This document shows, in pieces, positions 121 through 45,805 of a DNA stretch of 49,086 nucleotides. The DNA lies in the IMG/VR virus record IMGVR_UViG_3300034072_001440, positions 1-49,086 of that record, one strand, 5' to 3'. The stretch is from a virus. The stretch's first letter is position 1. Each line of letters starts with the position of its first letter. Below the pieces are notes generated by a model. It had not been told where the DNA came from, did no database searches, and saw only the letters and a list, made by a program, of their open reading frames with translations. A program made the translations under genes and the position numbers.

Positions 121-2394
121 CCTTCTCTTACCCAACTGAGATCGGATACGGCGGTTATTGGAGTAAGCAACTTACTGTCCACCAACGACGCCAGTATTCT
201 TCTAAGTAGCCTAAGGAGAAGAGGAACTTCAACCCCCGGGCTAATGCAGGATCCTACGTCACAAAAAATTTATACAAGCGAAGGTGTTCTTGCGCCAGCA
301 GGTACCCTCGTTGCAGTGGGGGATGGAGGGCAAAGATTTATTGTTGGAACGACAGGAACGATAATAAGGGATCTCGCTGGAAACGATGCACCTATTCCTG
401 CTACAGGGTGGGCCGGCACCCCAGGAACAGTAATAACTAATAATCCACCAAAGGATTCCACACCTACTGAGACACCCCCTACTGGAACAGGATGGTGGAA
501 CACACCATTTATTGAAACAGGGGGTATTGTAGTTTCGCCATCAAGTGGCGCTGACATTAGTTATTATAGGCCCCCCGGAACTACACAAGGGAAAATTACA
601 GGAATCTATGTACTTCCAGGACCACTAACTGCGCCCTCAAACATTGATCAAAACGTTTTTGGTAGCCTAAATACGGATGCAGCAAAAAAAGCATATCAAA
701 ACATATCATTTGATCATGAGAATGGGTCTGTTAGGCCCCAAATGGGAGGATTTGGGAGACTTGTTTTTGAGGACTTTTCTCCTTTAAGTATTCTAGGAAC
801 CGGAAATTCCCCAATACCTGACGGAGACGGGTTTTCAAGATTTATAGATGAAAGGTTACAAAGAGATTTTGTAAACTCAGCTGTCCCCAATACTCCGGGA
901 GCAGGACTTTATGCTGCCGGATTTCATGTATACGATCCAAATGTTTTTCAACGAATTGAAGAATGGGGAGAAATTAACCCGCAGGGCGCAAGACAGGTCG
1001 AGGCGTTTTACACAACTTTTGGGATTGATAAAGATAGATTAACGGAGAACGAAAGAAGAAATTATGCTCTTCAAGCGGTAGATTGGTACTTCCGAACTGG
1101 AGGAAATCTACTTCCCACGAGAGAAGGAACTGCCGAGTATTTTCGACAAGAAATAAACGCGGCCTATCGTGAGACAGGGTACGTCCCGCCGCCCAATGGA
1201 ACCGTTATCAACGGAGTTGCCCTCGGGGGAGGGCTTGGCGCAACTAACGGAGCACCCTACACCCAGACTGCCCCACTAGGGGGATTGATTGGGATGGGTT
1301 TCGACCCATTCGATCCAGCGCTTGTTGCAAGACTCAACTTGACGTTGCTGGAAGATGATTTCATCGGCGGAGAGATAAGAAGAAAACTCCAAGGATTTGG
1401 AGACATAAGCACGCCCGAAAGATTGGTCGAAGGAATGAACTGGTACTACGCTGACTTGGGTCGGCGTATGGATATCGATAATTCTTTCTTTAGTTCGGTT
1501 ATTGGGCAGATTATCAAATTTGGAATAACAACCATTGCTTCTACCTTTAACCCCTGGGTAGGAGCTGCAGTAGGGGGAGTCATTGGGGGAATCGAAGGCG
1601 GTCCTCTTGGTCTTGTTAAGGGAGCGATTGGGGGGTATGGAATAGGAAACATAATTGGAATTGATCTGAACAAGGTCATAAATATTCCAATTGTTTCAGA
1701 TCTTGGGCTTCTACCTTCCCCCTCTACGGATTTTGGCTGGGACGCTGTTGTTCGTTTGTTCAAGGATCCAGTTGCCTTGGGCAAAAAAATTGGGGCAGAA
1801 CTTGCTGGAAAGGCGTGGGATAAACTTACTGAAGAAGAGAGAAGGCAGTTCTCTGATTTTGCGATTGCAACAGGAATCCCAATCGTATATCTCAAAAATG
1901 CAATGCAGGGAGGAGCAGATGCTCCTCCTTCGACTAACGTTACAAGAGACCCTAATAGGAACAGGCCGTACTATGCTTCTTTTGAAAGTTACTTTCAAAA
2001 CCCCACTGGACTCCCTCAAAAAGTATCCTGGGGTAGCATTCTAAATTCAGTTAAAGGTTCTTCTCCCGGATCCTTGGATTTTATATCTAAGGCGTTGGAT
2101 GCCGCTGGAATTGGGGCCAAGTCAGGACCTAAAAAATACCTTTTTGCAGACGGCGGCGAGGTCCGTAGTCCATGGGCCACGGACCTTGAACAGTTGACCA
2201 AGGGCTGGGACCAGATGAGCGGCCAGTTTGATGACAAGATGAGCCAAGGGGATAACAATTACTTCATTTCCAAGGCAGATCAGTCGATGGCCCCTGAGGG
2301 AGAAGCCAAAAAGGATTACACTAGCCTGATTGGAGCGACGCCCAACGCAATTGCTGCGAGTGGCATGAACTCCTTTATCAAACAGTATGGATAA
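1..2394 (+). CDS. Large repeat and glycine-zipper protein, 5' truncated, probable virion protein
   Basis: The frame is open from base 1 to the stop at 2392-2394. The ATG at 244 is internal, because the PATGT repeats (1-120) and the bases between are in frame without a stop. At least 797 residues are present and the true N-terminus is missing. A Pro/Thr/Gly-rich stalk is followed by a long domain I do not recognise. A glycine-zipper hydrophobic stretch lies at about 1540-1660 (NPWVGAAVGGVIGG and onward), consistent with membrane insertion. Near the C-terminus the motif FADGGEV recurs in other proteins of this phage. The gene sits directly before portal, where a terminase is often found. It is visibly more AT-rich than portal. 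A virion or ejected protein is my inference from the glycine zipper and shared motif; a fibre-like role is also possible. Confidence 0.85.
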   Translation, partial: PATGTPATGTPATGTPATGTPATGTPATGTPATGTPATGTPSLTQLRSDTAVIGVSNLLSTNDASILLSSLRRRGTSTPGLMQDPTSQKIYTSEGVLAPAGTLVAVGDGGQRFIVGTTGTIIRDLAGNDAPIPATGWAGTPGTVITNNPPKDSTPTETPPTGTGWWNTPFIETGGIVVSPSSGADISYYRPPGTTQGKITGIYVLPGPLTAPSNIDQNVFGSLNTDAAKKAYQNISFDHENGSVRPQMGGFGRLVFEDFSPLSILGTGNSPIPDGDGFSRFIDERLQRDFVNSAVPNTPGAGLYAAGFHVYDPNVFQRIEEWGEINPQGARQVEAFYTTFGIDKDRLTENERRNYALQAVDWYFRTGGNLLPTREGTAEYFRQEINAAYRETGYVPPPNGTVINGVALGGGLGATNGAPYTQTAPLGGLIGMGFDPFDPALVARLNLTLLEDDFIGGEIRRKLQGFGDISTPERLVEGMNWYYADLGRRMDIDNSFFSSVIGQIIKFGITTIASTFNPWVGAAVGGVIGGIEGGPLGLVKGAIGGYGIGNIIGIDLNKVINIPIVSDLGLLPSPSTDFGWDAVVRLFKDPVALGKKIGAELAGKAWDKLTEEERRQFSDFAIATGIPIVYLKNAMQGGADAPPSTNVTRDPNRNRPYYASFESYFQNPTGLPQKVSWGSILNSVKGSSPGSLDFISKALDAAGIGAKSGPKKYLFADGGEVRSPWATDLEQLTKGWDQMSGQFDDKMSQGDNNYFISKADQSMAPEGEAKKDYTSLIGATPNAIAASGMNSFIKQYG

Positions 2395-2399
2395 CCTAG

Positions 2400-4778
2400 A
2401 TGCCTATAGATAAAGCACTGAATCCGGCACCGTCCTTTGGAATGGTTGCCATCACAGACGAGATGCCGGAAATCGAGATCGTTATCGAGCCCGATGGAAG
2501 TGCAACGATTGAAATAGGCGAGGACGAGGGGCCTCAAAAAGGGTTCTACGAGAACCTTGCAGAGGTTATCGACCCCTCTGTCCTGTCCAAGATTGCCTTG
2601 GATCTACTGGATCTGTACGAGGCTGACAAGGCAAGTCGTGGAGACTGGGAGACCCAGTACACCAAGGGCCTTGAGTTGCTGGGCTTGAAGATGGAAGAAC
2701 GCACCAAGCCCTTCCGCGGGGCGTCCGGTGCGGCGCATCCCATGCTGACCGAGGCGATTGTTCAGTTCCAGGCGCAGGCGTTTAAGGAACTGATGCCCTC
2801 TGGTGGTCCTGTAAGGACGCAGATTGTAGGCAAGGAGACCTTGGACAAGGTCCAGCAGGCCGCGCGCGTGCAGGATTTCATGAACTACCAAATCACCACG
2901 GTGATGTCTGAGTACACGCCGGAGATGGATCAGGCGTTGTTCTATCTTGGATACGGTGGATCGGTGTTCAAGAAGGTGTATTTTGACGCCACGCGTGGCC
3001 GCATGGTCAGCAAACTGGTCTTGGCGGACGATTTGTACATTCCGTATAACGGATCAAGCGTGATGAGCGAGTGCCCACGGATCACTCATCGCATTGCAAT
3101 GTACGAAAATGACTTCAAGAAGCTGGCGTGGGCGGGAGAATACATTGATCACACGTTTTTCACGTCACCTGGCCCAGAATCTCCGTCTGAAATTCAGTCC
3201 GGAATTGACCGTTTGGTCGGTTTTTCTCCTACCAGCCGCACTGATGAGCTATTTCTGCTTGAATTTCATGTTGATCTAGACATCGAGGGCTTTGAAGACA
3301 CGGACGAAGATGGAAATCTGACCGAAATCAAGCGCCCGTACGTTGTCACGATTGAGGAAAACAGCGGAAAGATTGTTGGCGTCCGCCGGAATTGGGAAGA
3401 AGGGGACGAATACAAGAGACGGATCGAATATTTCGTTCATTATCCGTTGGTCGAGGGCCCCGGCGCGTATGGCTTGGGCTTCGTGCACCTCATTGGAGGG
3501 CTTTCAAAGGCAGCGACTGCTGCGCTGCGTCAACTTCTTGACGCGGGAACGCTTGCGAACCTTCCCGCGGGCTTCAAAGCCAAGGGCGCGCGGATCGCGG
3601 ACGACGATAATCCGATCCAGCCTGGCGAATGGCGAGACATTGACGCCGGAGGCGCGGAACTTACGGCGTCTCTCATGCCGCTTCCGTACAAGGAACCCAG
3701 TCAGACGCTGTTCCAGCTGCTTGGATTCACGGTGGAGGCCGGACAGCGCCTCGCCAGCATCGCCGACATGCAGGTTGGCGACGGGAATCAGCAGGCTGCG
3801 GTGGGAACAACGCTTGCACTGCTTGAACGCGGGTCGATGGTCATGTCGGCCATCCACAAGCGGCTGCATTATTCGCAAGGCCTTGAGTTCAAGATGCTGG
3901 CAAGGGGCTTTTCCCGCTGCTTGCCGAACTCCTACCCGTATGACGTGCCCGGCGCTAGCCGTACCATCAAGCGGTACGACTTCAACGAGATGGTTGCGGT
4001 CCTGCCTGTATCGGATCCGAACATTTTCTCAAGTGCACAGCGTCTTACGCTTGCACAAATGCAGCTGGAAATGGCGCAAAGCGCGCCGCAGATGCACAAC
4101 CTGTACGAAGCGTATTATCGCGTGTACTCCGCGATGAACGTGCGGGATATTGACGGGATACTGAAGCCGCAAAATACCCAAATGCCCAAGGACCCCGCGT
4201 CAGAAAATGCGGCGGTTATGGATTTGATGGAACTGAAAGCGTTTGCCGGACAACAGCATGATGCCCACATCACTGCTCACCTCATCATGGGCATGTCGCC
4301 TTTGATTCAGAGTGTTCCCCAAGCCGCGATTACGCTGCAAAAACATGTTTTTGACCACATTCGGTTAAAGGCCGAGGAAGATGCTGAGGCAGAACTGTTC
4401 AAGCAGTATGGAAAGGACCCCGGGAACATGGTGTCCGATATTCAGCGCGAAGGTTTGATTGCCACGCTGATTGCGAAGTACATGCAGGAACTGAAGGCGC
4501 TGCAGGAACAGCTTGCCGGCGGTGGTCAAGAAGCGGGGCCGGATCCTGTGGTCGCGCTCAAGGAAAAGGAACTTGAACTTCGCGCGCAGCAGGATCAAGC
4601 GAAGCTACAGCTGGAGCAGGCGAAGCTGCAACAGGCGGCGCAGATACAGCAGCAGCGTATTCAGTCGCAGGAAAAGATTGCCCAAGACCGGGTAGAGGTG
4701 GCCCGCGAGCGGGCCGTCATGATGAACGAACAAATCCAGGGAGCACAGCGCAATGCCGCTCAAGAAAGGCCGCAGTAA
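2400..4778 (+). CDS. Portal protein
   Basis: This 792-residue protein has the size and look of podovirus (P22/T7-type) portals. It would form the dodecameric ring at the capsid vertex through which DNA is packaged and ejected. Recognisable stretches include the N-terminal region with KPFRGASGAAHPML and a central FYLGYGGSVFKKVYFD block typical of phage portals. The C-terminal roughly 100 residues are a Gln/Glu/Arg-rich coiled coil, like the barrel/crown helix of large portals. The start is 5 bases after the previous stop, with no clear ribosome binding site, so translational coupling is likely. A second Met at residue 15 is possible. The last 26 bases overlap the next gene. Followed within 4 kb by scaffold and capsid genes, which supports the call. 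Confidence 0.9.
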   Translation: MPIDKALNPAPSFGMVAITDEMPEIEIVIEPDGSATIEIGEDEGPQKGFYENLAEVIDPSVLSKIALDLLDLYEADKASRGDWETQYTKGLELLGLKMEERTKPFRGASGAAHPMLTEAIVQFQAQAFKELMPSGGPVRTQIVGKETLDKVQQAARVQDFMNYQITTVMSEYTPEMDQALFYLGYGGSVFKKVYFDATRGRMVSKLVLADDLYIPYNGSSVMSECPRITHRIAMYENDFKKLAWAGEYIDHTFFTSPGPESPSEIQSGIDRLVGFSPTSRTDELFLLEFHVDLDIEGFEDTDEDGNLTEIKRPYVVTIEENSGKIVGVRRNWEEGDEYKRRIEYFVHYPLVEGPGAYGLGFVHLIGGLSKAATAALRQLLDAGTLANLPAGFKAKGARIADDDNPIQPGEWRDIDAGGAELTASLMPLPYKEPSQTLFQLLGFTVEAGQRLASIADMQVGDGNQQAAVGTTLALLERGSMVMSAIHKRLHYSQGLEFKMLARGFSRCLPNSYPYDVPGASRTIKRYDFNEMVAVLPVSDPNIFSSAQRLTLAQMQLEMAQSAPQMHNLYEAYYRVYSAMNVRDIDGILKPQNTQMPKDPASENAAVMDLMELKAFAGQQHDAHITAHLIMGMSPLIQSVPQAAITLQKHVFDHIRLKAEEDAEAELFKQYGKDPGNMVSDIQREGLIATLIAKYMQELKALQEQLAGGGQEAGPDPVVALKEKELELRAQQDQAKLQLEQAKLQQAAQIQQQRIQSQEKIAQDRVEVARERAVMMNEQIQGAQRNAAQERPQ

Positions 4779-4989
4779 AAAGGTCATTGGTTCCAACATT
4801 GCCGAAATGGTCAGGTCCTTTAAGAAGACAGGGAAGATTGGAACCAGCAAGCCGAAAAGCGTAGGCAAGGCCACAAAACAAGCTGTGGCTATTGCGTACT
4901 CAAAAGCGGGTAAGGCGCGCAAAAGCATGGGCGGCCCTGTTCGCTCTGTTGTACGCAGGGACGGCAGGACCCCCACGAAAATTTATTGA
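4753..4989 (+). CDS. Small basic protein, DUF6496-like
   Basis: This 78-residue Lys/Arg-rich protein overlaps the end of the portal gene in another frame and has AGGGAG ten bases before its ATG. The order KKVIGSNIAEM ... KATKQAVAIAYSKAGKAR matches the small phage and bacterial proteins of the DUF6496 type, as far as I can judge by eye. It ends with a GGPV motif (KSMGGPVRSVVRR) similar to that in other proteins of this phage. A nucleic-acid-binding or internal capsid role is plausible from its charge but not shown. Confidence 0.75.
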   Translation: MPLKKGRSKKVIGSNIAEMVRSFKKTGKIGTSKPKSVGKATKQAVAIAYSKAGKARKSMGGPVRSVVRRDGRTPTKIY

Positions 4990-5271: not shown

Positions 5272-5286
5272 ACCCTGGGAGGAGTG

Positions 5287-5754
5287 ATGATAGAAGCCGC
5301 ACGTGAAAAAACCGCACTTGAGAAAAAATGGGAAGAAGCGCAACAGTCTCGCGCCCCTGCCTTTGAAGATGCCTACGATGCTGATGGTAAATTTCGCCCA
5401 GAGAACATGGGCGAAACCTTAAAAGACCTTGTCCCCACGCCGACTGGTTGGAGGATTGCCATTCTTCCTTACCGCGGCCCGGAAAAAACCAAGGGTGGCA
5501 TTGTTTTGGCGGACGAAACCCAGCGCCGCACCCAGCTCGCGACCACGTGTGGATACGTCCTCAAGGTCGGAGATCTTGCATACAGAGATGAGTCCAAATT
5601 TCCCACCGGCCCTTGGTGCAAGGAGGGAGATTGGATCATTTTTGGCCGCTATGCCGGCTCTCGAATCATGATTGATGGCGGAGAAATCCGCATCCTTAAT
5701 GACGATGAGATTATCGGCGTGGTCAACGATCCAGAAGATATTCTACACATGTGA
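5287..5754 (+). CDS. GroES-like co-chaperonin
   Basis: This 155-residue protein contains a GroES-type beta-barrel from about residue 50. A mobile-loop sequence KTKGGIVLADE lies at 68-78, matching the GGIVL segment with which GroES grips GroEL, and the end (GGEIRILNDDEIIGVV) matches the GroES C-terminal strand. The N-terminal roughly 48 residues are a charged extension not found in bacterial GroES. By analogy with T4 gp31 it would replace host GroES and fold phage capsid protein with host GroEL. It stands just before scaffold and capsid genes, consistent with that job. The ATG at 5287 is preferred, with GGGAGG just upstream; GTG at 5284 is the alternative. Confidence 0.88.
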   Translation: MIEAAREKTALEKKWEEAQQSRAPAFEDAYDADGKFRPENMGETLKDLVPTPTGWRIAILPYRGPEKTKGGIVLADETQRRTQLATTCGYVLKVGDLAYRDESKFPTGPWCKEGDWIIFGRYAGSRIMIDGGEIRILNDDEIIGVVNDPEDILHM

Positions 5755-7735: not shown

Positions 7736-8644
7736 ATGGCAATTTCACGTGCACAGCTTGTCAAGGAACTTGAGCCGGGCCTCAATGCCCTGTTCGGTCT
7801 TGAGTACAAGAACTATGAGAACGAACACACGGAAATCTACGACATCGAGTCGTCTGACCGTGCGTTTGAAGAAGAGGTGATGGAAGCCGGCTTCGGCGAA
7901 GCCCCGGTTAAGAACGAAGGCGCTGGCGTCGCTTACGACCAGGCGCAGGAAGTCTACACCGCGCGGTACACGCACGAAACCATCGCTCTGGCGTTCAGCC
8001 TGACCGAAGAAGCGGTTGAGGACAACCTCTACGACCGCCTTTCGGCTCGCTACACCAAGGCGCTGGCCCGTTCCATGGCCACCACCAAGCAGATCAAGGC
8101 CGCTTCCGTTCTGAACGGCGCGTTTGATACCTCGCTGGGCGGTGACGGCAAGCCTCTCTGCGCGACCGACCACCCGACGCTGTCGGGCCCGGATCTTCGC
8201 AATGAGCTGGAAACCTCAGCCGACCTTTCGGAAACTTCGCTGGAACAGGCACTGATTGATATCGCGGCGTTTACTGACGAACGCGGTCTCAAGATTGCTG
8301 TTCAGGGCCTCAAGCTTCTGATTCCGAAGGAACTGCAGTTCACTGCCGACCGCATCCTGAAGTCGACCCTTCGGGTGGGTACTGCGGATAACGACATCAA
8401 CGCTATCCGTAACATGGGCATGATTCCGCAGGGCTATACGGTCAATCATTACCTGACTGACCCCGATGCGTGGTTCATCAAGACTGATGCCCCCAACGGC
8501 ATGAAGATGTTCCAGCGCGTGGCGATCAAGACCGGCTTTGAAGGCGACTTCGACACCGGCAATGTTCGTTACAAGGCCCGTGAACGCTACAGCTTCGGCT
8601 TCAGCGATCCGCGAGGCATCTTCGGTTCTCCCGGCGGGGCCTAA
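7736..8644 (+). CDS. Major capsid protein
   Basis: This 302-residue protein resembles the HK97-fold capsid proteins of the Mu gpT-like group. Seen features are a helical N-arm (MAISRAQLVKELEPGLNALF), a long helix region with EEAVEDNLYDRLSARYTKAL, a P-domain-like segment with LKLLIPKELQFTADRILKST, and a C-terminal GNVRYKARERYSFGFSDPRG. The gene comes after scaffold, has GAGGTATAAAAC before its ATG, and is followed directly by a strong terminator. GC-rich, favoured codons fit a highly expressed product. It would form the icosahedral shell. Confidence 0.9.
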   Translation: MAISRAQLVKELEPGLNALFGLEYKNYENEHTEIYDIESSDRAFEEEVMEAGFGEAPVKNEGAGVAYDQAQEVYTARYTHETIALAFSLTEEAVEDNLYDRLSARYTKALARSMATTKQIKAASVLNGAFDTSLGGDGKPLCATDHPTLSGPDLRNELETSADLSETSLEQALIDIAAFTDERGLKIAVQGLKLLIPKELQFTADRILKSTLRVGTADNDINAIRNMGMIPQGYTVNHYLTDPDAWFIKTDAPNGMKMFQRVAIKTGFEGDFDTGNVRYKARERYSFGFSDPRGIFGSPGGA

Positions 8645-9907: not shown

Positions 9908-10150
9908 ATGGAACTGATGATCTGGAACGTCGTTTTGACCGCGCTGGTTGCGATGATGGGTTTTATGTTTAAGGAGAAAGTGTCTGAACTGGGGCGCATA
10001 GGGGTCTTGTTAAACAAGACCCGGGAAGAAATGGCCCGAGACCACATTACACGCGCGGAAGTAAAAGCGGACATGGAGCGGTTGGTAGAACATGTCGACA
10101 ATCGCTTCAATCGCCTTGAGGTCAAGTTAGACGAGATAAGGAACAAGTAA
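9908..10150 (+). CDS. Small membrane-anchored coiled-coil protein
   Basis: This 80-residue protein has one hydrophobic segment (IWNVVLTALVAMMGFMF, residues 5-21) followed by a charged helix with coiled-coil spacing to the end. The shape resembles many small phage proteins next to head-tail genes. A lysis-accessory or spanin-like role is conceivable from topology, but no lipobox or partner gene is visible here and true lysis genes are at 46 kb. Its stop overlaps the next ATG by one base (TAATG). Confidence 0.65.
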   Translation: MELMIWNVVLTALVAMMGFMFKEKVSELGRIGVLLNKTREEMARDHITRAEVKADMERLVEHVDNRFNRLEVKLDEIRNK

Positions 10151-29440: not shown

Positions 29441-29449
29441 GGAACAACT

Positions 29450-35389: not shown

Positions 35390-36828
35390 GCCTTGATGTC
35401 CTCCCCCAGCACTTGGTTTGCAATGTCGATTTTGTCCCGCAGGGCGTGAACGATTTTTTCGTCAACCGTGCGAGGCGATATCAGGTCTACATAGGTCACG
35501 TTCTTGCGCTGACCTATGCGATGAGCGCGGTCCTCGGACTGTAGTCTGATTTCAAGGTCAAAACTATTGCTGTAGTAGACCACCAGACTGGCCGCAGTCA
35601 GGGTAATCCCGTACCCACCCGTTCTGGGGTTTCCAACGAAGAACCGCAGGGGACTGTCGGGATCTTGGAACTCCCGAACCACGCGCTGCCGCTCTTCGGT
35701 GTCCGTGTCTCCGTAATAGGTGCCTACGCTTTCCATGCCGTACACCTTTTGGAGTTCAAGCTTGATACTTTCGATGTCGTGGCGATAGGTGGCCCAGATG
35801 ATGACCTTTCCGTCCGACTCCTCCAAAACATTCATGAGTTCGGTGATACGGTTGTGGGGAAGGGTGACCACCTCCCCGGAATCAAGCTTTAGATGCCCGC
35901 ATACGATTTGATGCAGTCGCATCAGCTGCGTCAGCGCGTTAACGGTGCTTGCCATGTCGTTTTCCATGCTGGCCATGGCCAAGTGCTTCATTTCCATGTA
36001 TACGCGGCCCTGCTCCTCGGTCAGGTCTACTTCACGCTTGGTGTAAAGCTTATCTGGCAGGTCTAGACACTCTTCTTTGGTCACTCGGAAACTGAAGCGG
36101 TCAAGCTTTTCCTGTAGTTCATCAAGCTTGCGGTATCCGACAACCTTCTTGAATGCATGACTGCCCATAGACTTTTCAATAGTGACCGCGTACCGCGCCT
36201 GGAAGGTGTAGTAGCTCGAGAAGCCTAGACATTCCTCGTCCAGAAACGCGCACTGCTGGTATAGGTCCATTGGAGACTTGGTGACGGGAGACCCCGTCAT
36301 GATTCTTCTGAACTTCGCAGAAGAGCCTATTTTTACGGCGTTTTTGGCTCTTTTTGCCGTGTGACTTTTGATTGTCGTGCTCTCATCGACGGCCATGAAC
36401 ACGCGGTACATGTTCAAAAAGAACTTTGCAAAGCTCGTTCCTTTGGTGGTGGACAGTGCCTCGATGTTCATGACGAGGATCCTGAGATCGTCGCTGAACT
36501 CTAACAAATCGTCCAAGGCCTTTTTCTCCGCCTTGCGCGGAGAGGGCGACCAGAGTGCCAGCCGGTACACGACATGCGCCGGCATGTGTTTTGGTATCTC
36601 TGTGTCCACCCAGTTCCTGTAAACGCCCTTTGGCGCGACGATCAAGGCCCCTCCTATCCGGCCCATGTCATACAGCATCGCGATATTGTTGATTACCATG
36701 AAGGACTTGCCTGTCCCCATCTCTGCAAACAAGGCCCCTACGGGCTTGTTCCAGAATCGGGACAAGTAGGCTTCTTGGTGGAGGAAAGGTTTGTTTTTAT
36801 AGGGATAGTTGGCTAAAAACTCTTGCAC
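35377..36828 (-). CDS. SNF2-family DEAD/DEAH-type helicase
   Basis: I place the start at GTG 36828 (GAGAG upstream), giving 483 residues; a longer open frame to 37320 crosses the divergent genes and is not coding. Motifs: FLHQEAYL (Q motif), AEMGTGKS (Walker A, K41), VDESTTIKS (motif II, DEST), MTGSPVTKSP (motif III), GYGITLTAAS and QSEDRAHRIGQ (motifs V-VI), the last diagnostic for SNF2. Phage members remodel DNA or act in replication and recombination. It is followed on the same strand by the nuclease and diverges from the replication genes. Confidence 0.88.
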   Translation of the reverse strand: MQEFLANYPYKNKPFLHQEAYLSRFWNKPVGALFAEMGTGKSFMVINNIAMLYDMGRIGGALIVAPKGVYRNWVDTEIPKHMPAHVVYRLALWSPSPRKAEKKALDDLLEFSDDLRILVMNIEALSTTKGTSFAKFFLNMYRVFMAVDESTTIKSHTAKRAKNAVKIGSSAKFRRIMTGSPVTKSPMDLYQQCAFLDEECLGFSSYYTFQARYAVTIEKSMGSHAFKKVVGYRKLDELQEKLDRFSFRVTKEECLDLPDKLYTKREVDLTEEQGRVYMEMKHLAMASMENDMASTVNALTQLMRLHQIVCGHLKLDSGEVVTLPHNRITELMNVLEESDGKVIIWATYRHDIESIKLELQKVYGMESVGTYYGDTDTEERQRVVREFQDPDSPLRFFVGNPRTGGYGITLTAASLVVYYSNSFDLEIRLQSEDRAHRIGQRKNVTYVDLISPRTVDEKIVHALRDKIDIANQVLGEDIKAWLI

Positions 36829-36851
36829 CGTGGTCTCTCTTTCTAGCGGGC

Positions 36852-36881
36852 TTGTATTTCCCGTGGGGCCGAGTGTACTAT
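36852..36881 (+). promoter_or_regulatory. Candidate rightward promoter in the divergent gap
   Basis: TTGTAT (36852-36857) and TACTAT (36876-36881) are spaced by 18 bases in the 81-base gap between the leftward helicase and the rightward replication operon. Each box matches the sigma-70 consensus at 4 of 6 positions. A start near 36888 would leave a short leader with the GAAAGGAG ribosome binding site before the ATG at 36910. Confidence 0.4.
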
Positions 36882-36909
36882 GGCTTGCGTTTTTGAGAAA
36901 GGAGAAAAA

Positions 36910-37239
36910 ATGCCAACGGTTTACGTCGTGTCCGAAACGGGCAAGCACAACATCACCCCTGCGCTGAACTTCGGGAACATCGTCACGGTGCTTCCGCCTA
37001 ACGCCCAGGTTGCATTCTCTGTAGGTCCCACGGTATCCCGCATTCGCAGGAAGCTTGCAAAGTTCTGTGACGAGGATTACCTTTTGTTTGTGGGCGACCC
37101 CACTGCCATCGGCATCATCAGTGCCATTGCAGCGCAACGGAACAAGGGTCGCTATAAGTGTTTGAAGTGGGATCGCATGGAGAAGCGGTATATCCCCATA
37201 CAGGTAGATATTTTCCATAAAGGAGATGAAGATGAATGA
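36910..37239 (+). CDS. Conserved small phage protein of the replication module
   Basis: The 109-residue product begins with MPTVYVVSETGKHNITPAL and has a well-conserved block (DEDYLLFVGDPTAIGIISAI, YKCLKWDRMEKRYIPIQVD). I have seen this in many podovirus replication regions as a protein of unknown function. GAAAGGAG is positioned well for the ATG at 36910, better than for the ATG at 36880. It is the first gene of the rightward early operon and overlaps the next by 8 bases. Confidence 0.75.
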   Translation: MPTVYVVSETGKHNITPALNFGNIVTVLPPNAQVAFSVGPTVSRIRRKLAKFCDEDYLLFVGDPTAIGIISAIAAQRNKGRYKCLKWDRMEKRYIPIQVDIFHKGDEDE

Positions 37240-37777
37240 CGTCTTTGAAGCAGATGCAGCGGCCTTTAGCGTTGACGACAACTCCATTGAGGGTATCGCC
37301 GCCATGGCCAAGCGGGCCAAGGAGCTTTCTGCTGAGATAAAAGACCTTGAGACTATCTTGAAGGAGCGTCAGGACCAATTCAGGAAACTGACTGAGACGA
37401 CACTGCCCGAGGCCCTTGCGTCTCTTGGCATGAAGTCTTTCAAGATGCATGATGGGTCGAGTATCGAGATCAAGCCGTATTACGGTGCCTCGATTCCCGA
37501 AGGCCGACGGACCGAGGCCCATGACTGGCTTCGCCAACACGGCTTCGACGATATCATCAAGAACATCGTGTCCGTTCGATTTGGACGCGGCGAAGACGAA
37601 CTTTGCGCCAGGCTCATCCGTATGCTGCGTGAGACTGGTTATCCGCTGGAACAGGCGGAAAAGGTGGAGCCCATGACCCTCAAGGCATGGGTTCGGGAAC
37701 AGGTGGAACGGGGCAACACTTTCCCTGTCGACCTGTTCGGCGCATACATCGGCCAGAAGGCCATCATCAAGACATAA
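37232..37777 (+). CDS. Conserved replication-module protein, function unknown
   Basis: ATG at 37232 is preferred over 37226 because AAAGGAG is 7 bases away. The 181-residue product has an N-terminal coiled coil (MAKRAKELSAEIKDLETILK) and a C-terminal domain with HDWLRQHGFDDIIKNIVSV, FGRGEDELCARLI and VEPMTLKAWVREQVERG. This C-terminal block recurs in small phage proteins next to ssDNA-binding genes. I know of no confirmed biochemical activity. Confidence 0.73.
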   Translation: MNDVFEADAAAFSVDDNSIEGIAAMAKRAKELSAEIKDLETILKERQDQFRKLTETTLPEALASLGMKSFKMHDGSSIEIKPYYGASIPEGRRTEAHDWLRQHGFDDIIKNIVSVRFGRGEDELCARLIRMLRETGYPLEQAEKVEPMTLKAWVREQVERGNTFPVDLFGAYIGQKAIIKT

Positions 37778-37794
37778 GACACAGGAGAATCGTT

Positions 37795-38562
37795 ATGGGA
37801 AACGTTGCTAAGGCAGAAGTAAGTTCAAACGCACTGGTTGTGACGTCTTCTTTTGAGGAGGACGCACACCTTGGCTTCGACGGGATGAATCAGGACGACC
37901 TTGCATTGCCGTTCCTGCGCCTGTTGACCGCTACGAGCCCAGAGGTGGGGGAAGTCGACGGGGCGATGCCCGGGATGGTTTACAACACCGTCACCGGACA
38001 GCTGTACGACGGCAAGAAAGGCCTGCTTGTGATTCCTTGCGCCTACGTGCGCCAGTACATCGAGTGGGCTCCCCGCGGGAGCGGCAGTGGTGCTCCGATT
38101 CAGATCTATCCGGCCACGTCGGATATTCTGAGCCGCACGCACCGCGAACCGGGGGACAGTCGGGATTATTTGGATTCCGGCAACTACATCGAGAACACCG
38201 CGAACCACTACGTGATGGTGATTGACGAGAACGGGGCACCGTCTCCGGCACTTATCGTCATGAAGTCCACGCAGCTGAAGAAAAGCCGCAAGTGGAACTC
38301 GATGCAGATGAGCGTGAAGCTGCAGTCCTCCCAGGGAGGCCTGTACACACCGCCGATGTTCAGTCAGATCTATCGTTTGACTACGACTCAGGAATCGAAT
38401 GACAAGGGTAAGTGGTATGGGTGGGAGATTGAGCGCGTCGGGTCCGTTGAGGACATGGGGGTTTACAAAGCCGCGAAGGAATTCGCGAACTCTGTAAAGG
38501 TGGGCGACGTCAAGGTTAAACACCAAGACGAATCCGTCTCACCGGAAGCGGCACCGTTTTGA
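37795..38562 (+). CDS. Putative ssDNA-binding protein
   Basis: The ATG at 37795 (ACAGGAGAATCGTT upstream) gives 255 residues. The body looks like an OB-fold-rich phage protein (GLLVIPCAYVRQYIEW, NHYVMVIDENGAPSPALIVM, WNSMQMSVKLQSSQGG, WYGWEIERVGSVEDM). It ends in an acidic, hydrophobic-tipped tail (DESVSPEAAPF), resembling the C-terminal hook of bacterial SSB and T7 gp2.5. Position between early genes and primase supports the call. The gene is followed by a strong terminator, suggesting it is made in higher amounts than the genes downstream. Confidence 0.68.
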   Translation: MGNVAKAEVSSNALVVTSSFEEDAHLGFDGMNQDDLALPFLRLLTATSPEVGEVDGAMPGMVYNTVTGQLYDGKKGLLVIPCAYVRQYIEWAPRGSGSGAPIQIYPATSDILSRTHREPGDSRDYLDSGNYIENTANHYVMVIDENGAPSPALIVMKSTQLKKSRKWNSMQMSVKLQSSQGGLYTPPMFSQIYRLTTTQESNDKGKWYGWEIERVGSVEDMGVYKAAKEFANSVKVGDVKVKHQDESVSPEAAPF

Positions 38563-38566
38563 CGCC

Positions 38567-38594
38567 ACGGGGGACGAAAGTCCCCCGTCTTTTT
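38567..38594 (+). terminator. Intrinsic terminator with GAAA loop after the ssDNA-binding gene
   Basis: ACGGGGGAC (38567-38575) pairs perfectly with GTCCCCCGT (38580-38588) around a stable GAAA tetraloop and is followed by CTTTTT. It begins 4 bases after the stop codon. The primase start is only 12 bases past its end, so it probably attenuates rather than ends transcription. Confidence 0.88.
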
Positions 38595-38605
38595 GAGAAA
38601 GAAGA

Positions 38606-40138
38606 ATGAGTGACCAGATCTCTCAATTCATGGCCATATTCGAAGGCTTGGAAATAGCTTATGGAACCTACAAAATCGAGGGCGCAAAAGGTAACGGAAA
38701 ACAAGCCGGAAAAGCCGTCGTCGTACGACAACCCCCTGTTCGGGACCTCTGGGAAAAACATCTCAAAGGAGTTGAGCCATCTCTTGGCATTATTCCGATT
38801 CGTAGTGATAACACTTGTAGTTGGGGCTGTATTGATATCGATCAGTATCCTCTTGACCTTGGAATGGTTGTCAACAAGGTTAGGTCCCTTAATCTCCCCC
38901 TAGTTGTATGCCGCTCCAAGTCTGGCGGGGCGCACGTATTCTGTTTTGTGTCTACTCCAGTGCCTGCAGGGTCTATGCAGGAATACCTGCGTGCCTGTGC
39001 TGCATTGATCGGAGAGTCGGGGCGCGAGATATTCCCAAAGCAGGCTGAAATCTTGGTGGAGCGCGGGGACACGGGCAACTTCCTGAACCTCCCTTACCAT
39101 AACGCCGATGAAACGCTGCGCTATGCCATCAAGGACAATGGCGATGCTGCGACCTTGGAAGAGTTTTTCGAACTGTACCAGCAGTTCGTGCAGGCCCCTC
39201 CGCTTGTCATTCCGGAGACCCCAAAATCCGCCGGAACAAAATTCATGTCGGACGGGCCGCCGTGTCTCCAAGCGCTTTGCACCCAGGGGTTCCCGGAGGG
39301 CACGCGAAACAACGGTCTTTTCAGCCTTGGTGTATACCTGAAGCAGGCATTCCCAGAAGCGTGGGAAAACAAGCTCATGGAATACAACATGAACTACTTT
39401 TCGCCCCCTCTCGGGATTGCCGAGTTACAAATTGTCGTCAAACAATTGGCGAAGAAGACTTATCGTTACAAGTGCAAGGACCAGCCGCTGCAGTCGTTCT
39501 GCAACAGCGGGCTTTGCCGCACCAGAAAATTTGGAATTGGATCAGACGGCCCTGATAGCCCGCGGCTGTCCAGCCTCAGCAAGTATGCGAGCGAGCCCCC
39601 GCTTTGGTTTGTGGACGTGAATGGGAAACGCCTTGAACTGGAAACGGAGAGCCTGTTTAACCAAGCGGCCTTCCAGAAGGCCTGCATGGAGCGTATCAAC
39701 ACGCTTCCACCGACACTGAAAAAACAGGACTGGGAATCCGTATTGAACGGGCTGCTGCAGGAGATGGTCGAACTCGAGCGTATTCAGGACGCCAGCGAGG
39801 ACACCACCACGACGGGGCGTTTCAATGACCTGCTCGAGGAATACTGCACCCACTTGCACCAAGCCATGGACCGCGATGAAATCCTCATGGGCCGTCCGTG
39901 GACAGATGAGGAAACGCGTACTGTATACTTCCGCATGAAGGACCTCGAAGCGCACCTCAAGCGCAACAACATGGTCCTGACGAGCCCAAAGGTTGCACAA
40001 CGACTGCGAGATCTCGGAGGAGCGTCTCACGTGCTGTGGATTAAGGCCCGCGCAACACGGGTCTGGAAAATCCCGGCATTCACCAAGCAGGACTCCCCGT
40101 TCTCGACACCGTCGGAAGCGCATGACGCTCCGTTCTAA
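38606..40138 (+). CDS. Archaeo-eukaryotic-type primase (TOTE-like)
   Basis: The 510-residue protein has the AEP catalytic signs GCIDIDQY (D77, D79) and SKSGGAHVF (H110), then GNFLNLPYHN. The middle part has GPPCLQAL (C220), EGTRNNGLFSLGVYLK, and a cysteine cluster C290-x8-C-x4-C304 (YKCKDQPLQSFCNSGLC), which may bind a metal or Fe-S cluster. It would make RNA or DNA primers for phage replication. The C-terminus ends in HDAPF, like the APF end of the ssDNA-binding protein. It shares one base with the following helicase. Confidence 0.82.
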   Translation: MSDQISQFMAIFEGLEIAYGTYKIEGAKGNGKQAGKAVVVRQPPVRDLWEKHLKGVEPSLGIIPIRSDNTCSWGCIDIDQYPLDLGMVVNKVRSLNLPLVVCRSKSGGAHVFCFVSTPVPAGSMQEYLRACAALIGESGREIFPKQAEILVERGDTGNFLNLPYHNADETLRYAIKDNGDAATLEEFFELYQQFVQAPPLVIPETPKSAGTKFMSDGPPCLQALCTQGFPEGTRNNGLFSLGVYLKQAFPEAWENKLMEYNMNYFSPPLGIAELQIVVKQLAKKTYRYKCKDQPLQSFCNSGLCRTRKFGIGSDGPDSPRLSSLSKYASEPPLWFVDVNGKRLELETESLFNQAAFQKACMERINTLPPTLKKQDWESVLNGLLQEMVELERIQDASEDTTTTGRFNDLLEEYCTHLHQAMDRDEILMGRPWTDEETRTVYFRMKDLEAHLKRNNMVLTSPKVAQRLRDLGGASHVLWIKARATRVWKIPAFTKQDSPFSTPSEAHDAPF

Positions 40139-41637
40139 TGCAGGTCCAGAAGATATTCGGGCCCCCTGGGTCGGGTAAGACTACTTACCTGCTGAACCTC
40201 GTCGAGAGGGAACTCGACGAGGGCACTTCTTCCTCTGCCATGGGGTACTTCTCTTTCACGCGTAAAGCCTCCATTGAGGCGCGTGAGCGCGCTATCCAAA
40301 AGTTCCCGTTCCTTGTTCCGGAGGTAGACTTCCCGTGGTTCAGGACGCTACACAGCCTGGCGTACCACTGTTTAGGCGTGGGAACGAAGGACATGATGAA
40401 GCCGGAAAACTACCGGGAGTTTGGCCGTCAGGTCGGCATTGATGTCAGTACCGAGGAAGGTGATGACGAATTTTCAGTCAAGGCTGACAGCCCCATTCTG
40501 AACCAGATGAACCTTGCGCGTCTTCGTGGGGAAGACCTTCGCACGCATTACAACCGCAGTGATCTGAAGATTGAGTGGCTGCACTTCGAGTACGTTGCCC
40601 GAGCCTATCGGCACTATAAGGAAGAAAAAGGATTGTTTGATTTCAACGACCTCCTTGAAAGGATCCTTGAACAGCCCGAGAGACTGCCTTCTCTTGACGT
40701 CCTGATTGTTGACGAAGCACAGGACCTATCCAAGCTGCAGTGGAACATCGTTTCCGCCCTTGCACAGAAGGCCAAGCGTACCTTTTTGGCGGGCGATGAT
40801 GACCAGGCGGTGTACAACTGGGCTGGAGCGGACGTCGGAGAGTTTCTAGGATTCAAGGGCGAGCCTATTGTTCTGCGGCAATCCTATCGCGTCCCGTTAG
40901 TAGTCCACGAACTCGCGAACAAGGTGGTGAACCGTATTCGCGTCCGGCAGAAAAAAATGTGGTACGCCCGCGAGGAGCGTGGAGAAATCCGTTTCTACTC
41001 TGATTTTCAAAAAGTCGATGTCAGCCAAGGCGAGTGGCTTATCCTCGGCGCGACAAACTACCTCCTGAACGGTATGCACTCATGGCTGAAGTCAGAGGGC
41101 GTCCTTTTCGAGCGCCACGGACAACGGAGCATTCCGGAGAACGTCCTTTCAGCGGTCTTGGGATGGGAGGCTCTGCGCCGTGGGGAATCAGTCACACCCC
41201 AAGTTGTAAGGAACATTTACAAGTTCCTCGGTCCATCAGCCGTGGCCCGTGGACAACGGTCCTTGGCGTCTCTTCCCGACGAAGGCATCTTCTCCATGAA
41301 GCGCCTACAGCAGCAGCACGGCCTCGAGACAGACGATATCTGGCACGTAGCACTGTCCAAGATTGACGCGGCAAAACGTGAATACATCATTGCCCTGCTT
41401 CGCCGCAAAACGCGACTGACGGGGGATGTTCGCGTTAAACTGTCCACGATCCACGGGGCAAAAGGCGGAGAGGCCGACAATGTCCTGCTCCTGATGGACC
41501 TGTCCACGCGCTTTTCCGAGGAATACATCAAGAACCCGGATGACATCAACCGCCTGCTTTACGTAGCACTGACTCGCACGAAGCAGTCTCTCCATCTCGT
41601 TCACCCGATCAACGCACAGAAGGCTTTTTTCCTATGA
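40138..41637 (+). CDS. UvrD/PcrA-like SF1 DNA helicase
   Basis: This 499-residue helicase shows all main SF1A motifs: GPPGSGKTT (Walker A, 8-16), IVDEAQDLSKLQ (motif II), AGDDDQAVYNWAG (motif III), QSYRVP (motif IV), STIHGAKGGEADNVL (motif V) and LLYVALTRTKQ (motif VI). It is shorter than bacterial UvrD, lacking much of the 1B/2B insertions. It presumably unwinds DNA ahead of the phage polymerase or in recombination. Starts within TAATG after the primase and overlaps the polymerase gene by 4 bases. Confidence 0.92.
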   Translation: MQVQKIFGPPGSGKTTYLLNLVERELDEGTSSSAMGYFSFTRKASIEARERAIQKFPFLVPEVDFPWFRTLHSLAYHCLGVGTKDMMKPENYREFGRQVGIDVSTEEGDDEFSVKADSPILNQMNLARLRGEDLRTHYNRSDLKIEWLHFEYVARAYRHYKEEKGLFDFNDLLERILEQPERLPSLDVLIVDEAQDLSKLQWNIVSALAQKAKRTFLAGDDDQAVYNWAGADVGEFLGFKGEPIVLRQSYRVPLVVHELANKVVNRIRVRQKKMWYAREERGEIRFYSDFQKVDVSQGEWLILGATNYLLNGMHSWLKSEGVLFERHGQRSIPENVLSAVLGWEALRRGESVTPQVVRNIYKFLGPSAVARGQRSLASLPDEGIFSMKRLQQQHGLETDDIWHVALSKIDAAKREYIIALLRRKTRLTGDVRVKLSTIHGAKGGEADNVLLLMDLSTRFSEEYIKNPDDINRLLYVALTRTKQSLHLVHPINAQKAFFL

Positions 41638-43493
41638 CCATGTCCCTATTCCCTCCGCGCTCGGAATGGATACCGCCAGCGTCATTTCCGGATTTGTCAG
41701 CGGCAGAGGAAATCGCTATCGACTTGGAAACCAACGATCCCAACATGGAGATCCGAGGTCCCGGGTGGCCGCGCAACGATGGCTATGTCGTGGGGTATGC
41801 CGTGGCCGTTGACGGCTGGAAAGGATACTTCCCTGTCGCACATCAAGGCGGCGGGAATCTCGACAAGAAGGTGGTTGAGCGGTGGATGCAGAAGGTGCTG
41901 TCGCTGCCCTGCCCGAAGATCATGCACAACGCAGCCTACGACTTGGGGTGGCTACTGGCCTCCGGGTTCCGGGTCGAGGGTACCATCATCGACACGATGA
42001 TCGCCGCAGGGCTTGTGGACGAGAACCGATACTCCTACGCCTTGAACGCCCTGGGCTTTGACTACCTCAAGGAAATCAAGTCAGAGGCCTCGCTGAAGGA
42101 GGCGGCTGCGGACTTTGGCGTTCACCCGAAGAAGGAATTATGGAAGCTCCCGGCGATGTTCGTAGGTGAGTATGCGGAGCAGGATGCGGCACTAACTCTG
42201 AAGCTTTGGCAGTATCTAAAGACCATGCTGCGTCGCGAAGAGGTGGAGTCCATCTTTGACTTGGAGACCTCTCTGCTGCCTGTGTTTGTCGGGATTACAC
42301 GACAAGGGATCAGGTTCAACGCACCGCGGGCCATAGAACTTACGGAAGAAATGCTGAAGGCCGAGAAGTCGTTGATCGACGACATCTCTAGCATGGGAGG
42401 TTCAAAGATCGATATCTGGGCTGCTGCGTCCGTCGCAATAGCGTTCGACAGGCTCAAGATCAAATACCCGCGGACCGCTACCGGCCTGCCGAGCTTTTCT
42501 CGGTCCTTCTTGCAGGAATGCGACGCACCAATCGCCAAGAAAATCATCGAGGCCCGGGAACTCAACAAGACCTACGGCACGTTCCTGCGCCCCTATCTGG
42601 ACTTCTGCAAGAACGGTCGCATCCACCCCCACGTGAACCAGCTGCGCGGCGAGGATGGGGGAACCGTTACCGGACGCCTGTCGATGAACAGCCCAAACCT
42701 GCAGCAGGTCCCTGCCCGGCACGAAATCATAGGCCCCACCGTCCGAAGCCTGTTCCTGCCGGAAGAAGGGGAGCAGTGGGCGGCGCTGGACTTTTCGTCC
42801 CAGGAGCCTCGGCTGCTGGTTCACTACGCTTCCCTGCTGGGCCTGCCGGGAGCGGCGCAGATGGTGAAATCCTACCGAGATAACCCGGACACCGACTTCC
42901 ACCAGATGGTGGCGGACATGGCCGGCATCAAACGTAAGGCCGCCAAGACAATTGGGCTAGGGCTGATGTACGGGATGGGCAAGGCCAAGCTGGCAGGGGA
43001 ATTGGATATGACGCCTGCCGAGGCCACGGAATTGATCGGCTTGTTCCACGAGAAGGTGCCGTTTCTGAAAAGCACTGTGGATGCGGTCATGAAGCGCATC
43101 GACAACCCGGCAACCGATGGGTCCATCCGGACCCTGCTTGGCAGGAAGTGTCGGTTCCCACTTTGGGAGCCGGTAGCCTTTGGGATCAACAAGGCCCTGC
43201 CCAAGGAGGAGGCCGCGGCGAAGTACGGACCGCGGATCAAGCGTGCGATGACCTATAAGGGCCTGAACCGCCTCATCCAAGGGTCCGCCGCTGACCAGAC
43301 CAAGGCTGCCATGCTGGCGCTACACCGGGCGGGATTCCGCATCCTGCTGCAGGTGCATGATGAAATCGCCATCAGTGTGAAGACCCGGGAAGAAGCGCTC
43401 GAGGCGCTGGACATCATGAAGAACGCGGTAAATCTGGAGGTGCCCTCCAGGATTGACTTGGAAATTGGACCTTCATGGGGCGAAGCCTCTTGA
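41634..43493 (+). CDS. Family A DNA polymerase with 3'-5' exonuclease
   Basis: The 619-residue protein has an intact proofreading domain: IAIDLETND (D30, E32), HNAAYDLGW (N99, D103) and YAEQDAA (Y180, D184). The polymerase motifs follow: LDFSSQEPR (motif A, D386), RKAAKTIGLGLMYG (motif B, R434, K438, Y446) and LLQVHDEI (motif C, H575, D576, E577). No 5' nuclease domain is present, as is usual for phages. The residue at the position of E. coli Pol I Phe762 is Leu442. It is the replicative enzyme of the module, with overlapping genes upstream. Confidence 0.95.
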   Translation: MTMSLFPPRSEWIPPASFPDLSAAEEIAIDLETNDPNMEIRGPGWPRNDGYVVGYAVAVDGWKGYFPVAHQGGGNLDKKVVERWMQKVLSLPCPKIMHNAAYDLGWLLASGFRVEGTIIDTMIAAGLVDENRYSYALNALGFDYLKEIKSEASLKEAAADFGVHPKKELWKLPAMFVGEYAEQDAALTLKLWQYLKTMLRREEVESIFDLETSLLPVFVGITRQGIRFNAPRAIELTEEMLKAEKSLIDDISSMGGSKIDIWAAASVAIAFDRLKIKYPRTATGLPSFSRSFLQECDAPIAKKIIEARELNKTYGTFLRPYLDFCKNGRIHPHVNQLRGEDGGTVTGRLSMNSPNLQQVPARHEIIGPTVRSLFLPEEGEQWAALDFSSQEPRLLVHYASLLGLPGAAQMVKSYRDNPDTDFHQMVADMAGIKRKAAKTIGLGLMYGMGKAKLAGELDMTPAEATELIGLFHEKVPFLKSTVDAVMKRIDNPATDGSIRTLLGRKCRFPLWEPVAFGINKALPKEEAAAKYGPRIKRAMTYKGLNRLIQGSAADQTKAAMLALHRAGFRILLQVHDEIAISVKTREEALEALDIMKNAVNLEVPSRIDLEIGPSWGEAS

Positions 43494-43495: not shown

Positions 43496-43517
43496 GGTAT
43501 CGTAGTTTTACGATACC
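43496..43517. promoter_or_regulatory. Perfect palindrome before the small basic protein gene: operator or hairpin
   Basis: GGTATCGTA and its exact complement TACGATACC are separated by GTTT, just after the polymerase stop and about 25 bases before the next ATG. There is no U-tract, so a simple terminator is unlikely. TTGAAA (43490-43495) overlaps its left edge. A candidate binding site for the basic protein coded next; the half-site CGATACC also occurs at 48802-48808. Confidence 0.6.
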
Positions 43518-43542
43518 CTGCGCGGCAGAGGAGGACATAACA

Positions 43543-44428: not shown

Positions 44429-44437
44429 GGCGTTCAA

Positions 44438-44929
44438 ATGCCTGGACCTCGACGTGTACGTCGCTTCCAAGTCGGAGGAAGCGCGAATGTAGATTCTGGC
44501 GAACGCCGCCAGCCTAACATGAAACTTGTCGAGTCCTTCATGGCTCGACAAGGGATGTCAGAGGAACAGAAGGCGAATTACCGCCGGATGCTGGGCATAG
44601 ATCAGCCAAAGCCCCCTGCCAAGCCCGCCGCAAAAAATCCTCGTTCACCGCTCGCGCAGGCGGTAAGACCCAAGAAAAAGAAGCCCATTGTCCGCAGGGC
44701 CGCTCCTCCGCAACAGGCCGCACCGGCCACTCGCCAAGCCGCTCCTCCGCCCCCTCCGCCCCCTCCGCCTCCAGCGCCTATGCAGGCCCCGGAGCAGGAC
44801 GGAATGCTGGGCGAAACCATGAATGCAATCCAACAGCGTCAGCAGATGCTGCAGGGCCTGAAGCGTGGCGGCCCGGTCAAAAAGAAAGCCGCTCCACGGC
44901 GCGTGGTCCGCGCCAAACGACGCCGATAA
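44438..44929 (+). CDS. Pro/Ala-rich basic protein with GG motifs (copy 1 of a pair)
   Basis: This 163-residue protein starts PGPRRVRRFQVGGSAN, has a short helical domain (LVESFMARQGMSEEQKANY), a Pro/Ala-rich middle with ten Pro in a row, and ends GLKRGGPVKKKAAPRR plus an Arg/Lys tail. Both the opening QVGG and the closing GLKRGGxVKKK recur in the next gene. It is probably disordered and nucleic-acid-binding or virion-internal. Reading frames on the opposite strand are mirrors of the repeats. Confidence 0.68.
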   Translation: MPGPRRVRRFQVGGSANVDSGERRQPNMKLVESFMARQGMSEEQKANYRRMLGIDQPKPPAKPAAKNPRSPLAQAVRPKKKKPIVRRAAPPQQAAPATRQAAPPPPPPPPPPAPMQAPEQDGMLGETMNAIQQRQQMLQGLKRGGPVKKKAAPRRVVRAKRRR

Positions 44930-44947
44930 ATTCCAAAAGGATTTCCA

Positions 44948-45805
44948 ATGAAGCCGACCAAGAAGCCGATGATGGCGAAGCGCACCACCAAAGCCGCTCC
45001 CGCCAAGAAGAAGATGATGGCTAGTGCCAAGAAGCCGATGACGGCTAATGGCAAGAAGGTTCAGAAGTATCAGGTGGGTGGCATGGCCGCTCCAGGCAAA
45101 GGCAGGGTGACTAACCCCGGCGGTCCGTCGGCCACGATGCCTCCGTCCAATCCGCGCGTCGTGCGTCCGAGGATGCCGCAGACTGGCGGTGTTAATCCGC
45201 GTCCGGCAGCGCCGGGTGTTGGCTACGGTGGGATTGGACGACCCGGTGTTCAGGGACGCCCGGGACAGGGGATGATCGCCAACAATGGCGGCGGGATGAT
45301 GTCTCCTCCGTCTCGGCCAAACATTCCGGGGATTACCCCTCCAATGAATCGCCCTGTTCGCACTCCGCCGCAGCCGCAGGGAATGCCGCAGGGGATGAAC
45401 CCAGCAATGCAGCTGTATGCTCAACAGTATGGGCAGATGCCGCAGCCGCAGGGGATGCCGCAGGGTGGTTTGCTGGGCGCAGGACCGATGCAGCAGTTGG
45501 GACAGGGGATGCCGCAGGGTGGTTTGCTGGGCGCAGGACCGATGCAGCAGTTGGGACAGGGGATGCAGGGAATGGACCCAAGAATGCATCCGGATTATCA
45601 GTCGCCGAAGACCATCGACTTGCGGGATCCTGCGATGGCTGCTCGGTATGGGCATCTGGGTCGTGGGCCGCAGCCGTTGACGCAGGAGCAGTTGCAGCAG
45701 CTAGGGCCGATGAGACAGCTGGGCCTCAAGCGAGGCGGTGAAGTCAAGAAGAAAAAAGCCCCGGCGCAGGGTCGCATGGCCAAGCCTGCGCGAAGGAAGA
45801 AGTAA
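44948..45805 (+). CDS. Lys/Pro/Gly/Met-rich protein with 54-bp repeats (copy 2 of the pair)
   Basis: The 285-residue product opens with Lys/Met-rich sequence (MKPTKKPMMAKRTTKAAPAK), carries KVQKYQVGGMAAPGKG, then a Gly/Pro/Met/Gln-rich middle with two identical copies of an 18-residue unit (GMPQGGLLGAGPMQQLGQ). It ends in GLKRGGEVKKKKAP. The shared beginning and end with the preceding gene suggest a common origin. It looks intrinsically disordered. Function unknown; internal virion protein or DNA-condensing factor possible. Confidence 0.68.
   Translation: MKPTKKPMMAKRTTKAAPAKKKMMASAKKPMTANGKKVQKYQVGGMAAPGKGRVTNPGGPSATMPPSNPRVVRPRMPQTGGVNPRPAAPGVGYGGIGRPGVQGRPGQGMIANNGGGMMSPPSRPNIPGITPPMNRPVRTPPQPQGMPQGMNPAMQLYAQQYGQMPQPQGMPQGGLLGAGPMQQLGQGMPQGGLLGAGPMQQLGQGMQGMDPRMHPDYQSPKTIDLRDPAMAARYGHLGRGPQPLTQEQLQQLGPMRQLGLKRGGEVKKKKAPAQGRMAKPARRKK
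45451..45562 (+). repeat. 54-bp perfect tandem repeat
   Basis: GGGGATGCCGCAGGGTGG starts at 45451 and 45505 and the next GGGGATG at 45559, so two complete 54-base units precede a partial third. The unit is 18 codons in frame; no mismatch is visible between the two full copies. Confidence 0.93.

Follow-up and report, generated by a model that had tools for sequence, protein, structure and literature searches.

A recurrent Gly-Gly-centred peptide, [FY]AxGGxV, in unrelated phage proteins: a possible docking tag for virion cargo

The peptide and its genes in the window

A short peptide centred on Gly-Gly, with the consensus [FY]AxGGxV, was analysed in a linear viral record of 49,086 bases (IMG/VR record IMGVR_UViG_3300034072_001440, taken at its full length and called the window), which belongs to a short-tailed phage (podovirus). 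Copies of the peptide, or close variants, were found in the gene at the left contig end, in a basic protein of 78 amino acids (aa) encoded next to the portal protein, in the 620-aa and 682-aa proteins of the ejection-type gene block and in two further basic proteins of 163 and 285 aa (Table 1). The first-pass annotation had drawn attention to these recurring strings; all of those it listed are present in the translated proteins, and the copy that it put at about 2137-2163 lies exactly at 2143-2163. The left gene fills a variable slot on the 5' side of the portal; in relatives this slot is bounded by the terminase large subunit and the portal. The residues encoded at 244-2394 had no match in Pfam or PHROGs, and the 5' end of the gene is missing.

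The strict form of the peptide, [FYLM][AK].GG[EPD]V, occurred five times in the window, against 0.026 expected from shuffled proteins or 0.050 when the GG dipeptides were kept, and at least five matches were reached in 0 of 1000 shuffles. Because this form was derived from the window's own data, the consensus from other phages, [FYM]A.GG.V, was tested instead and was present three times (0.079 expected; 0/1000 shuffles). The loose core [FYLM]..GG showed no excess in the window (27 versus 24), nor did Gly-Gly itself (148 versus 156). The weight thus rests on the strict form only, and SMGGPV, LAQGGQP, FQVGG and YQVGG individually carry none. The comparison with shuffled sequences that had been proposed for the signature therefore bore out the strict form (5 versus 0.026-0.050), while the loosest variants (FQVGG, LAQGGQP and SMGGPV) were not significant alone. 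In the family of the 78-aa protein the GG is optional, and the tail ending in KIY is better conserved than SMGGPV. A 61-aa Gly/Met-rich protein is a weak member of the motif set. The portal string MPSGGPV was rejected as an independent copy, as it represents a single homologous position in a folded protein. Synonymous codons differ between the copies in the window, so that the conserved thing is the peptide and not the DNA; an origin from a DNA element or by microhomology was rejected on the same ground.

Beyond the motif, a number of unrelated small basic proteins (window 4753-4989, and small open reading frames (ORFs) 3' of the portal in contigs L251-L329) have short C-terminal tails in common, which end in K[IV][YC] or RIC.

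Table 1. Genes, gene blocks and copies of the peptide in the window.
Feature	Position	Strand	Remarks
Left gene	1-2394	+	797 aa encoded in the window; truncated 5' by the contig end
FADGGEV	2143-2163	+	left gene
Portal protein	2400-4778	+	phrog_1216
MPSGGPV	2793-2813	+	portal; homologous position in 54/80 portal relatives
78-aa basic protein	4753-4989	+	phrog_2423
SMGGPV	4924-4941	+	78-aa protein
GroES	5284-5754		phage-encoded; 5' of putative scaffold and coat gene
Coat protein	7736-8644
61-aa basic Gly/Met-rich protein	10518-10703	+	MRKGGYA, C-terminal MKKGGMC
Ejection-type gene block	24607-34710
620-aa protein	24607-26469	+	ejection/tape-measure-like
FSDGGIA	25045-25065	+	620-aa protein; relatives read FAEGGLA/FAMGGIA
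LAQGGQP	26251-26271	+	620-aa protein
682-aa protein	29450-31498	+	within ejection-protein block
MADGGEV	30050-30070	+	682-aa protein, Pro/Ala-rich stretch
YAEGGDV	30086-30106	+	682-aa protein, Pro/Ala-rich stretch
Replication block	34637-43493
163-aa basic protein	44438-44929	+
FQVGGSA	44465-44485	+	163-aa protein, near N-terminus
LKRGGPV	44858-44878	+	163-aa protein, directly before basic C-terminal tail
285-aa basic protein	44948-45805	+	Pro/Gly/Met-rich
YQVGGMA	45068-45088	+	285-aa protein
LKRGGEV	45725-45745	+	285-aa protein, directly before basic C-terminal tail

Recurrence and placement of the peptide in phages

[FY]AxGGxV is a general phage peptide, non-random and directional. IMG/VR was scanned for DNA encoding FA[DE]GGEV, with the scrambled peptide EFAG[DE]VG as control, and the same pattern was sought in GTDB genomes; the IMG/VR and GTDB scans were compared by fractions, not totals. 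Among the matches listed, the peptide was in frame in the main gene set at 108 of 119 IMG/VR loci, the scrambled peptide at 44 of 120 viral loci, and the FA[DE]GGEV pattern at 35 of 120 in GTDB genomes. The low in-frame fraction in the latter indicates that the excess is viral. The 108 viral proteins (among the matches listed) fell into 40 clusters by a rough single-linkage procedure, with no detectable relation between clusters, so that homology of the bearers was rejected as the cause and the claim that the proteins are otherwise unrelated holds well beyond the window. At the non-seed GG sites, with one protein taken per cluster, F or Y at position -3 was enriched 3.2-3.3-fold, A at -2 2.3-fold and V at +2 3.4-fold. 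With the seeds masked, [FY]A.GG.V was found 30 times versus 0.12 expected, and the reversed V.GG.A[FY] was not found at all. At least two motifs were present in 63 of the 108 viral proteins versus 4 of 35 cellular ones, again among the matches listed. Four controls thus reject chance, namely shuffling, the scrambled peptide, the cellular genomes and the reversed pattern; a generic Gly-Gly hinge as sole cause is rejected as well, since GG is not in excess and the strict form is not enriched in reverse. A motif-profile match to CapV (FADGGLV) was at chance level (E 1.6) and was discarded.

The slot filled by the left gene was surveyed in 80 viral contigs related via the portal, with genes called as greedy longest ORFs; a scan for relatives seeded with the 1070-aa neighbour yielded three relatives only. 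The slot gene lies directly between the terminase large subunit and the portal and is highly variable, its products ranging from several hundred to 1826 aa in about 30 groups. Pfam domains in the slot proteins (45 members) included DUF6973, PcfJ, LPD23, SLT, CBM_14, ART-PolyVal and zeta toxin, among others; several PHROGs endolysin/lytic families were also matched, and HExxH/HExxxH signatures were present in 11 of 87 (0.4 expected). The slot proteins of the relatives are polyvalent proteins sensu Iyer et al. 2017: they are likewise large and modular, carry PcfJ, LPD23, ART-PolyVal, zeta-toxin, lysozyme and HExxH modules, and are encoded among virion or late genes. They differ in that the motif here is also found in small basic and tape-measure-like proteins. 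In passages of PMC5512222 polyvalent proteins are proposed to be packaged and injected; a word search of that paper found neither glycine nor linkers, and no shared Gly-Gly peptide is described in those passages. The slot in contigs L251-L329 and the window (1-2394) is hypervariable, with nearly the same portals next to very different polyvalent proteins.

In this phage group the motif is concentrated in certain gene classes, namely slot proteins, ejection-type proteins and small basic proteins. The slot proteins held 49 copies of [FY]A.GG.V (0.17 expected; none of the reversed pattern), and a looser motif was present in 33 of 43 complete slot proteins, with 99 copies versus 5.8 expected. By gene class, 144 motifs versus 8.3 expected were counted in the slot, 13 versus 0.4 in the 78-aa family and 28 versus 2.5 in other small proteins. 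The coat, scaffold, terminase and adaptor families of the 80 portal-related contigs lacked the motif. The small basic head-module proteins comprise several families with net charges of about +11 to +23, and often carry the motif before the basic tail. In an unbiased search of non-redundant slot sequence, F...G.V and GG.V ranked directly after low-complexity Pro/Thr, heptad-like and helix patterns.

The motif lies in linker-like sequence where modules join or the chain ends, and it is the peptide that is conserved. Ends of BLAST-matched modules lay within 10 aa of a motif in 240 cases versus 79 ± 13 for random positions. The last 25 aa contained a motif in 27 of 74 slot proteins (4.1 expected), representing six unrelated C-terminal families. 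In homologous slot pairs of 25-75% identity the GG of the motif was kept in 95-97% and the residue at -3 in 73%; in pairs of the same type the flanks from +5 to +25 were kept to about 25-40%, versus 58-62% for other Gly-Gly pairs. The window and contig L251 have portals of 100% identity and slot proteins that match at about 54% identity over the aligned region. The two slot proteins diverge up to the motif (KYLFADGGEV in the window, LIKRATGGEV in L251) and are near-identical after GGEV, the switch at 2143-2163 reading KYLFADGGEVRSPWATDLEQ in the window and LIKRATGGEVRSPWATDLEQ in L251. In the 682-aa protein PLNMAxGGxV forms a conserved island relative to Phage DSL-LC04 in an otherwise hardly alignable Pro/Ala-rich stretch.

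The proximity of the signature to disordered or basic tails, noted at the outset, was likewise found, as linker-like or basic-tail stretches. In an AlphaFold2 model of the slot protein of contig L289 all four motifs fell in segments with a pLDDT below 50 and the C-terminal half was confident; the support from this model is modest, as 40% of the protein has a pLDDT below 50. For the 682-aa protein the model reached a mean pLDDT of 41.9, too poor for the low values at its motif to mean much. Among solved structures, no relative of the portal, coat, 78-aa or 620-aa protein was present in the PDB.

Possible roles of the peptide

We tentatively read [FY]AxGGxV as a phage-specific short linear docking motif on proteins that travel inside the virion, with a probability of about 0.4. 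The cargo would consist of the polyvalent slot effectors, the ejection or tape-measure-like proteins and the small, very basic head-module proteins, all of which would enter the virion. The aromatic residue, the Ala and the Val may serve as anchors, displayed by a bend at the Gly-Gly within disordered sequence, and could fit a groove on a single shared head component (coat, scaffold or portal). The candidate receptors are coat, scaffold, portal and adaptor, which are highly conserved and free of the motif as a recurrent tag. New cargo modules might then be loaded into the head by acquiring at least one copy of the peptide. A broader proposal is more doubtful: the peptide would be a 'cargo code' in wide use among tailed phages, a docking peptide that can be transferred and that loads unrelated, fast-evolving anti-host proteins into the head for ejection with the DNA. 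Injected effectors could then be predicted directly from sequence.

The capsid targeting sequence of phage T4 is N-terminal and is removed by the phage-encoded prohead protease. [FY]AxGGxV differs in being internal, multi-copy or C-terminal. Cleavage by a prohead protease is not indicated here; a search of eight complete relatives for Peptidase_S78 gave no match. In the T4 internal proteins, which otherwise vary widely, the targeting sequence is the sole conserved element (PMC3012670); it would be a parallel in role, not in sequence, to the encapsidation role proposed here. The cargo proteins of crAss001, known from mass spectrometry, reside in the capsid and tail and are extruded before the DNA (PMC10172136); they would be a functional parallel for the proposed cargo.

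Several observations weigh against docking. No motif was found in the 50 kb of crAss001 that were searched, which include the cargo verified by mass spectrometry (gp45-gp50). An excess over shuffles was not found in HTVC023P, CRP-901, Caulobacter RW and QDWS535; the motif is not universal. A single receptor across such different phages is hard to picture, and a tape measure module lies next to 66 of the 729 motifs collected from viral proteins.

The placement at module joints, the fall of the switch between L251 and the window at the motif, and the slightly more disorder-prone sequence downstream of it would also suit a linker or turn that tolerates domain swaps and is spread by recombination, with no dedicated partner. 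A flexible linker needs neither the strong directionality nor the fixed F/Y-A-x-G-G-x-V, however, the motif is also present at C-termini and in small basic proteins that consist of a single module, and the differing synonymous codons speak against recent copying of a DNA element; we regard such a linker as rather unlikely. Clustering at joints and the enrichment of HExxH/HExxxH signatures fit a processing site, at which a phage or host peptidase would cut at or beside the Gly-Gly and separate the polyvalent modules before or after delivery, and passages of PMC5512222 propose processing of polyvalent proteins by embedded zincin peptidases. Such a site is unlikely, given the lack of Peptidase_S78 in the complete relatives, a zincin signature in no more than 9 of the 61 slot proteins that bear the motif, a variable residue at +1, and the many copies 8-20 residues from the C-terminus, where a cut would free a short tail only. 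A search of the relatives for Peptidase S77 gave no match, with the control silent too. Double-glycine bacteriocin leaders also carry Gly-Gly in a short recognition peptide; there it ends an N-terminal leader that is cut by a C39 peptidase, whereas [FY]AxGGxV is internal or C-terminal and repeated. The initial idea of a packaging, docking or protease-recognition tag for a set of virion proteins is thus retained in part, in that the peptide recurs in proteins of a type likely to be packaged or ejected; its occurrence extends beyond this phage and beyond any fixed set, and protease recognition is the weaker part of the idea.

The 620-aa protein contains two related modules, GRGTDTMLAHITPSEARML (residues about 166-209) and GPGSGTSDSIPAMLSDGEFV (about 563-612), and FSDGGIA and LAQGGQP each lie upstream of such a D[TS]xxAx[LI][ST]xxE module. 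The second (SDSIPA) module, the C-terminal 50 residues, matched phrog_5448, phrog_6090, phrog_23013 and other tape measure families in PHROGs, and actinophage and Vibrio tape measure proteins by tblastn; the tape measure family matches are limited to these residues, the rest of the protein being unmatched. In some of the matching tape measure proteins [FY]xxGGxV borders the module, either on one side or on both. The peptide might accordingly be a fixed strand of a tape measure module, '...GGxVxGPGTGTSDSIPAxLSxGE[FY]V...FAxGGxV', inherited with it or left as a remnant, as would be suggested by its position beside the module both in the 620-aa protein and in tape measure proteins of siphophages. 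Most copies occur with no such module: of the 729 motifs in the viral proteins collected only 66 adjoin one, as does 1 of the 155 in slot proteins. The motif is therefore not simply part of the SDSIPA module, and membership of the SDSIPA/GRGTDT module was rejected on this ground. The L289 model also leans towards an unstructured motif, and we consider a fixed strand quite improbable. Recruitment of a chaperone or another host or phage factor is very improbable; the peptide would, for instance, mimic the mobile loop (GGIVL) of GroES, so that cargo stays unfolded while it passes through the tail. GroES is encoded in all annotated relatives, the phage loop reads KGGIVL and some copies of the peptide read GGIA[ST]L, but E, P, D or S predominates at +1 and the residue at +3 is not hydrophobic, so that most copies lack the loop's hydrophobic contacts.

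If the docking reading is true, it would bear on how phages other than T4 select the proteins that they pack and inject, and a pattern search would list candidate injected effectors (ADP-ribosyltransferases, nucleases, kinases and cell-wall enzymes) in uncultivated phages. Even as a processing site or joint, the peptide would be a recurrent feature for which the strings tried gave no description in the open-licence literature, and it also marks the hypervariable terminase–portal cargo slot of this podovirus group.

Related phages and further repeats

The closest annotated relative of the source phage is Phage DSL-LC04 (portal identity 71.5%), followed by the pelagiphages HTVC023P and HTVC027P, the roseophages CRP-901 and CRP-902, Planktothrix/Synechococcus and Caulobacter phages and one Alcaligenes phage. 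In HTVC027P 7 motifs were counted, versus 1.6 in shuffles. The position of GroES, with its KGGIVL loop, 5' of the putative scaffold and coat genes is the same in all annotated relatives read.

A GRGTDTxLAHxTPxEAxxL...GGSGTINPxTGLPE module, which resembles the SDSIPA module and has no match to a Pfam family, is common to the 620-aa protein (window 24607-26469) and several slot proteins (L003, 12638-14917; L306, L318, L291, L295 and L277). Three further repeats were observed in the window. Tandem PATGTP repeats with an 18-base unit occupy positions 1-180 of the left gene, at the left contig end. A segment around EGVTKDMLPWMSKE occurs three times, nearly unchanged, in a 121-aa protein (10150-10515), and a 380-aa protein (18118-19260) carries near-identical GTAGTASAGTVTSSQNVSITLS repeats.

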